Shown here one piece after another: positions 22,124 to 28,522 of a DNA stretch of 44,538 nt. Below the pieces are notes generated by a model. That model was not told the DNA's origin. It worked only from the letters and a program-made list of their open reading frames with translations, and ran no database searches. Numbering within the stretch: position 1 is the stretch's first letter; every line of letters starts with the position of its first letter. Made by a program: the position numbers and the translations under genes. Origin of the DNA: Candidatus Cryptoclostridium obscurum (GTDB taxonomy: Bacteria; Bacillota; Dehalobacteriia; UBA7702); assembly GCA_904420535.1 (NCBI GenBank), contig CAJFVQ010000006.1, positions 1 through 44,538 on the forward strand, given 5' to 3'.

Positions 22124-22200
<77 letters not shown>

Positions 22201-26994: not shown

Positions 26995-28320
26995 TTGGAA
27001 CTGCCACTCGATTTAAAACTTGAATTAAAGGATTTGCTGGCAGATGAGTACACAGAATTTGAGGCGGCTATGGGGAATTTTCCTCATAGCGGCCTTCGTT
27101 TTCATCAGTCAAAATATACCAATGATATCATAAAGACTATGGAATGTGAAGAGGCCGTCCCATGGAGTCCCTTTGGCTATTATTGCACGATGGAGAAACC
27201 TGCTTACCATCCTTTTTACCATGGTGGTGTTTTTTATATTCAAGAGCCCAGCGCCATGGCACCGGCAGAAGTGCTTTGTCCTCGACCGGGGGATTGGGTA
27301 TTAGATTTATGCGCGGCCCCCGGCGGTAAAAGTACACGACTGGGAGAATTTTTGCAAGGGAAAGGTCTTTTGGTGGCGAATGACATTAGCAACCGCCGTT
27401 GCCAGGCCCTACTGCGCAATTTGGAGTTGTTCGGCATTGCCAACAGTTTAGTTCTGAATGAGTCGCCCCAGCGTTTGGCGGAACATTTCGGCCCTGTGTT
27501 TCATAAAGTATTGGTAGATGCTCCCTGTTCTGGTCAGGGAATGTTTCGCAAGGATCCTCGCCTACTAAAAGAATATGTGACCAGAACGGATCGTCCCTTT
27601 CCTCTTTGGCAAAGGGAAATATTGTCTGCAGCCGCGGAACTCACAGCTCCCGGCGGAGAGATCGTTTATTCTACATGTACGTTTTCCCGGGATGAAAATG
27701 AAATCATTATTGATGATTTTTTATCCTCCCACGGGGAGTTCTCTTTGGTTCCCATTCCATTGATACATGGTTTTGCTCCCGGTGCCAACGGTATGACCGA
27801 AGTGGCGCGGCTTTGGCCTCACCGGATAAAAGGGGAAGGGCATTTTATCGCTCATTTGAAACGGCGGGGAATAGCGGAGCATCCTAGTAAATCAAACGCA
27901 TGTCATCCTTGCGATTGCGAACTGTTCGTTTCTTTTTGTCGCGAATGTGGAATTCTTCTTCCCCGCGGCAACTATTACCGCAAAAATGGAAATCTTTATT
28001 TTCAGCCGACCACAGTGCCGAATTGCAAGGGACTTCATGTGGTAGCCAACGGTTTATATCTTGGGGAAGAAAAGAAAGATCGTTTTGTGCCATCCCATCC
28101 TTTAGCGTTGTCACCGTTGGGAGCGGAAGCGGCGGCAAAACAGGTATTCCCCGTAGATAGCGATGAAATTCGGGATTATCTCAAGGGATTGACGCTTCGT
28201 GGAGATGTTGATAGGGGATATCATATCATTTTTGCCGACCAGATCCCTTTGGGGTGGGGCAAGTCTGACGGAAGAGGGACGTTGAAAAATCATTATCCCA
28301 AGGCATGGAGAAACTTATAA
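26995..28320 (+). CDS. RsmF-like RNA (cytosine-5) methyltransferase
   Basis: The TTG at 26995, with GGAG 8 nt upstream, gives 441 residues beginning MELPLDLKLELKDLL, as expected for the family. The NOL1/NOP2/Sun domain has VLDLCAAPGGK (102-112), VDAPCSGQGMFRK and the catalytic-cysteine motif YSTCTFSRDENE. The C-terminal third has the PUA-like RsmF module. It should methylate C5 of a cytosine in 16S rRNA (or tRNA). It is coupled to thrC. Confidence 0.9.
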   Translation: MELPLDLKLELKDLLADEYTEFEAAMGNFPHSGLRFHQSKYTNDIIKTMECEEAVPWSPFGYYCTMEKPAYHPFYHGGVFYIQEPSAMAPAEVLCPRPGDWVLDLCAAPGGKSTRLGEFLQGKGLLVANDISNRRCQALLRNLELFGIANSLVLNESPQRLAEHFGPVFHKVLVDAPCSGQGMFRKDPRLLKEYVTRTDRPFPLWQREILSAAAELTAPGGEIVYSTCTFSRDENEIIIDDFLSSHGEFSLVPIPLIHGFAPGANGMTEVARLWPHRIKGEGHFIAHLKRRGIAEHPSKSNACHPCDCELFVSFCRECGILLPRGNYYRKNGNLYFQPTTVPNCKGLHVVANGLYLGEEKKDRFVPSHPLALSPLGAEAAAKQVFPVDSDEIRDYLKGLTLRGDVDRGYHIIFADQIPLGWGKSDGRGTLKNHYPKAWRNL

Positions 28321-28350: not shown

Positions 28351-28379
28351 TTGACGGTTTTTGATGGATTCGTTATAAT
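28351..28379 (+). promoter_or_regulatory. Promoter of the NiCo riboswitch/CDF unit
   Basis: TTGACG (28351-28356), 17 bp, TATAAT (28374-28379). Transcription would start near 28386, just upstream of the aptamer. Confidence 0.8.
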
Positions 28380-28407
28380 AGTAAAAATTCGACAGACTCA
28401 CTATATT

Positions 28408-28480
28408 TTACTGATCAGGCAGTGAATATTTTCATGTGGCCGGGCCGAATCATGGCAGCAGAAGCATCTGCGGGACAGAG
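28408..28480 (+). ncRNA. NiCo (czcD) riboswitch aptamer
   Basis: The blocks of the NiCo class occur in order: ACTGATCAGGCA, a P2 hairpin (TGAA/TTCA), GTGGCCGGGCC, TGGCA, a P4 hairpin (GCAGA at 28458-28462, loop AGCA, TCTGC at 28467-28471) and the closing GGGACAG (28472-28478). CTG/CAG closes P1, which is weak beyond three pairs. Known members bind Co2+ or Ni2+ and turn on metal-export genes; a CDF exporter gene follows at 28523. The P4 strand shares bases 28464-28475 with the terminator. Confidence 0.88.
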
Positions 28481-28504
28481 ACATCCCGAGATGCTTTTTT
28501 ATTT
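28464..28504 (+). terminator. Riboswitch-controlled terminator
   Basis: GCATCT pairs with AGATGC (28489-28494) and CGGGA with TCCCG (28484-28488), G470 side bulged, with an 8-nt loop and TTTTTT after it. The 5' arm contains the 3' half of P4 and part of the conserved GGGA, so ligand-bound aptamer and terminator exclude each other. An ON switch is expected. Confidence 0.85.
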
Positions 28505-28522
28505 CGGGTGAAAGGAGATTTT

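Follow-up and report, generated by a model that had tools for sequence, protein, structure and literature searches.

The stretch of DNA analysed here (the window, 44,538 nucleotides from Candidatus Cryptoclostridium obscurum) carries a gene for a cation exporter of the CDF family, and a preliminary description of the segment 28351-28522 preceding it had proposed a NiCo riboswitch with a built-in terminator. The limits of this segment are the start of the -35 box and the last base before the CDF start codon. The locus raises the question whether the segment is a member of this riboswitch class and, if it is, how and by which metal the exporter gene would be controlled.

Identification of the riboswitch unit

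When the whole window was searched with Rfam cmscan, the NiCo (czcD) riboswitch family RF02683 aligned end to end (model positions 1-96) with 28400-28480, scoring 46.7 bits where the gathering score is 37; the E value of 1.3e-7 refers to the window searched with all Rfam families. Only two families exceeded their gathering scores, this one and a tRNA (22124-22197). A search of the whole genome (2.1 Mb in 101 contigs) with RF02683 alone returned the same site with an E value of 1.5e-9 and no second copy at E ≤ 10. An independent covariance model (R1) was built from 33 of the 38 Rfam-labelled NiCo elements located upstream of CDF relatives, with the window left out; L045, L060, L072 and L073 were dropped for long insertions or many extra bases and L070 for its cut 5' end. 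R1 recognized the window copy with 54.6 bits (E 7.1e-13) and gave no further match anywhere in the 44.5 kb window. Both models thus agree with the class assignment of the preliminary description, and the aptamer blocks lie where it had put them.

The RF02683 features present at the locus include the metal-site guanines, helices P1-P4 around a junction, an overlapping intrinsic terminator and a metal exporter downstream. Judged by its sequence, the locus is a complete NiCo riboswitch unit composed of promoter, four-way-junction aptamer, terminator, ribosome-binding site and CDF exporter (Table 1). The promoter is a prediction only, because the scan yielded 4 promoter-like sites in 501 bases where 1.3 were expected; as its -10 box ends at 28379, the transcript probably starts near 28386. 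This is a known riboswitch class met at a new place, an ordinary and not a surprising find. By itself the switch changes nothing already known, and its value is that of one more well-formed natural example, from a bacterial class with few sampled genomes (43).

Table 1. Coordinates of the elements of the NiCo riboswitch unit in the window
Feature	Position	Strand	Basis and remarks
Promoter (predicted)	28351-28379	+	-35 TTGACG 28351-28356, 17-base spacer, -10 TATAAT 28374-28379; consensus scan, 11/12 matches
NiCo (czcD) riboswitch aptamer, RF02683	28400-28480	+	cmscan 46.7 bits; R1 model 54.6 bits
P1 5' strand CUG	28411-28413	+	pairs with CAG 28476-28478; Rfam alignment and minimum-energy fold
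GGG after P2 (J2/3)	28442-28444	+	invariant in 36/36; expected, together with GGG 28472-28474, to bind the metal ions
P4 hairpin GCAGA-AGCA-UCUGC	28458-28471	+	aptamer fold; pairing positions covary in relatives
Intrinsic terminator	28461-28500	+	5' arm 28461-28475 with one bulged G; 3' arm 28484-28497; run of six T 28495-28500; -20.7 kcal/mol
Ribosome-binding site AGGAG	28513-28517	+	direct sequence reading; 5 bases before ATG 28523
CDF cation exporter, 305 aa	28523-29440	+	H52-D56-H164-D168 site; Pfam PF01545 2.2e-51, PF16916 3.5e-22; TIGR01297

The exporter and the metal

The presence of a CDF exporter downstream of the switch, as previously described, was confirmed by the cation efflux (PF01545) and dimerisation (PF16916) domains of the gene product and by a score of 238 bits with the CDF superfamily model TIGR01297 (cut-off 82). 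The protein scored below the cut-off of every named CDF equivalog listed in NCBIfam, including FieF (NF050169, 144.6 bits versus 420) and the Co/Ni efflux protein DmeF (NF033827, 57.8 bits versus 250). Its closest solved relatives by sequence are FieF structures, in which the aligned metal site is D-D-H-D versus H-D-H-D in the exporter. Of 48 CDFs linked to a NiCo element, counting that of the window, 47 have the H-D-H-D site, as do all 42 relatives that lack the switch; being alike in both groups, the site was discarded as an indicator of the metal. A search of plasmids with this unit returned a single partial match, which covered 43% of the query and lay inside the CDF gene, and thus gave no sign of a mobile copy.

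The switch had been called Ni/Co-sensing. This stands as the name of the class and fails as a statement of a settled ligand, since PMC7689651 and PMC11477304 point to other metals. The most likely candidates are Co2+, Ni2+ and Fe2+, among which the present evidence does not choose. In PMC7689651, the first study is said to have found micromolar binding of Ni and Co and a later anaerobic study nanomolar binding of Ni, Zn, Co and Fe; the buffered anaerobic affinities given there are 400 nM for Fe(II), 120 nM for Co(II) and 61 nM for Ni(II), estimates of cellular availability leave Fe(II) and Mn(II) as the only metals that would be bound, and the cognate metal of the class is termed unclear. Three other papers describe the ligand as debated (PMC9294342), mention predictions supporting an Fe2+ response in E. 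coli (PMC9434800) and file the class as an Fe2+ riboswitch (PMC11477304).

That the same switch works in this cell chiefly as a sensor of Fe(II), with the CDF protein as a ferrous-iron exporter, is a serious possibility, to which we give somewhat less than an even chance. Xu and Cotruvo reportedly argued that the class is chiefly an Fe(II) sensor. The affinities and availability estimates of PMC7689651 and the filing in PMC11477304 fit this reading, as do the FieF pumps that are the nearest solved relatives of the exporter and the genome's two strong FeoB matches, but the genome also handles cobalt, with ten cobalamin riboswitches above the cut-off and a CbiM cobalt importer. The H-D-H-D site of the exporter, compared with D-D-H-D in FieF, likewise speaks against iron and does not decide the matter, since the switch-less relatives share it. 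A sensor of one of the three metals named above is the reading that we retain.

Elsewhere in the genome, the segment C19:17650-18591 contains a cobalamin riboswitch and the CbiM cobalt-importer match. The riboswitch (C19:18458-18591) shares its strand with the match and lies about 190 bases upstream of it, so that B12 probably controls cobalt import and the NiCo unit export. Taken together, the cobalamin riboswitches, CbiM and the FeoB matches indicate that the genome handles both cobalt and iron, and it could provide one more test case for the metal sensed in cells. A NiFe hydrogenase match, considered as a sign of nickel use, was rejected as too partial (70 of 508 model positions).

Structure and conservation of the aptamer

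In the Rfam alignment P1 has an extra pair, U28409-A28479, across the bulged A28410, and the junction is closed by C28416-G28474. The metal-binding guanines of the class are G45-G47, G87 and G88 in PMC7689651, and by analogy the guanines of the window copy would correspond to these metal-site positions of the crystal numbering. In an alignment of 36 sequences, made up of the window and 35 of the 38 NiCo elements of CDF relatives, the blocks CAG, CGGG, GGGAC and G were invariant throughout, and 16 of the 22 predicted pairs showed a two-sided change with pairing kept in at least one of the 36 sequences. The predicted stability of the aptamer was unremarkable for its composition (z -0.38), so the case for the aptamer rests on conserved sequence and covariation. 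Its minimum-energy fold is the four-way junction, but this is one among several near-equal folds and accounts for only 7% of the predicted ensemble.

P1 had been thought to be shorter than in the published example, a feature interpreted as possible tuning of affinity or as a sign of a variant. This view had to be abandoned. Among 97 captured instances (the pattern missed 27 of the 124 loci, and some counts of 0-2 are probably mis-anchored), P1 had three contiguous pairs in 23 and four in 46, that is three or four in 69. A P1 of three contiguous pairs is therefore ordinary and within the normal range, which rules out a variant, and nothing suggests an adjustment of affinity.

The window copy resembles RF02683 in its four-way junction, the GGG/GGGA guanines, the overlapping terminator, the cation exporter downstream and the predicted ON control, and differs from relatives in the family by the absence of the common 5' ACAGUAC, by a P4 of five pairs with a four-base loop and by the fourth P1 pair formed across a bulged A. 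These differences are all inside the family spread. One might take them for signs of decay, with metal binding lost and the terminator constitutive, because the score is low (46.7 bits compared with 89.6 for the best relative), P4 is short and ACAGUAC is present in 38 of 62 NiCo loci (the window, 38 loci of CDF relatives and 23 other elements). We regard a decayed aptamer as very improbable: every invariant base of the 36-sequence alignment, which includes the window, is present, and many members above the cut-off score lower still.

Terminator overlap and the proposed switch

The 5' arm of the terminator contains the 3' strand of P4 (28467-28471) and the GGGA block (28472-28475), whose three G residues are paired to C28485-C28487 when the terminator forms. 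Sharing between aptamer and terminator had been claimed for 28464-28475; it was found for 28467-28475, and the first three bases belong to the P4 loop. The terminator (-20.7 kcal/mol) was equalled by none of 200 shuffles, which had a mean of -8.5 kcal/mol (sd 2.3, z -5.3). A terminator overlapping the aptamer in the same way, with its 5' arm inside it, was detected in 62 of 62 NiCo loci versus 45 of 310 shuffled copies, the background of 15% being due to the permissive detector; the built-in terminator of the preliminary description is thus common to all these loci. That the hairpin merely terminates an RsmF-like gene, which lies upstream on the same strand and ends at 28320, and only incidentally looks like part of an aptamer is hardly credible in view of the full-length family matches obtained with RF02683 and R1, the predicted promoter that separates the two, and the conservation of the shared bases in 62 of 62 loci.

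We conclude that the segment is very probably a NiCo (czcD) riboswitch acting as an ON switch of transcription. RNA polymerase would start just past the -10 box and transcribe the aptamer first. A divalent metal would then be bound at the four-way junction by conserved guanines in two blocks, GGG after P2 and GGGA after P4, and the bound metal would hold P4 and P1 and so make their bases unavailable to the terminator; read-through into the CDF gene would follow, and the metal would be pumped out. When metal is absent, 28461-28475 would re-pair with 28484-28497 to form the terminator before the T run, and transcription would stop. PMC7689651 and PMC7917058 describe the mechanism of the class in the same terms, a terminator without metal and read-through with it, and the sign proposed earlier, that metal turns the exporter on, agrees with them and holds as a prediction from sequence and comparison.

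For RNA ending at 28479 or 28480 the predicted fold is the four-way junction, slightly longer transcripts are predicted to have other folds of similar energy, and with the 3' arm present the terminator is formed. In predicted energies, with metal binding and co-transcriptional timing outside the calculation, the terminator form is favoured by 13.5 kcal/mol compared with a median of 15.6 over the 62 loci. Since the terminator is energetically favoured, the outcome would have to be set during transcription or by metal binding. The yybP-ykoY Mn2+ riboswitch, which controls metal homeostasis genes, is like the window copy a metal sensor with a four-way junction; this family gave no match in the window at its Rfam gathering score (cmscan).

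The 5' leader and the OFF state

The ACAGUAC leader stands at the 5' end of the elements that have it (for example L041:1753-1765) and is missing from the window copy (28400-28410). It matches the 3' ACAGUA of the aptamer itself and is able to fold onto the strand of P1; in Rfam it is unpaired. In the loci scanned, some of which overlap, the motif occurred 86 times adjoining an aptamer versus once without one. A leader hairpin opposing P1 was considered as a feature of the class and rejected: the fold-back is worth just -1.8 kcal/mol, and a leader hairpin is missing from most loci whose P1 has diverged, so covariation fails to support it class-wide.

In predicted folds of the window copy the P1 strand 28407-28413 can form seven pairs with the P2 strand 28420-28426. 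The window copy may on this basis represent a small variant of the OFF state, in which cross-pairing of P1 and P2 would replace the leader fold-back (CAGU-ACAA-ACUG) and the whole aptamer would be undone as the terminator forms, a model that we consider unlikely.

Occurrence in relatives

Among the 80 best CDF relatives (from named genomes), 38 had a NiCo match at the Rfam cut-off upstream of the gene and 42 had none, one of the latter (L032) with less than 250 bases of upstream sequence; the exporter is thus not always under NiCo control. The 42 switch-less loci (within L025-L104) encode close orthologues of the exporter that share its H-D-H-D site. That an aptamer variant had been overlooked before these genes was discounted, because R1 found only three more elements among them, all weak (29.9-33.8 bits). 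At the level of genomes, NiCo elements above the cut-off were found in 20 of 61, a set comprising the window's genome and those around it, and in 71 of 398 in a phylum-wide draw.

In eleven loci (L002-L011 and L019) the gene following the NiCo element was not a CDF gene; judged by eye, its product resembles P-type cation ATPases of type II/III (calcium/proton) and not the heavy-metal P1B pumps. Pfam and NCBIfam searches with L003, L005, L010 and L019, whose genes are cut by the locus end, agreed with a P-type ATPase and stayed below every named equivalog cut-off. Three NiCo elements, L045:1667-1811, L072:1693-1838 and L095:1549-1740, were much longer than the others (145, 146 and 192 bases versus about 80 to 100), and have large insertions in hairpins.
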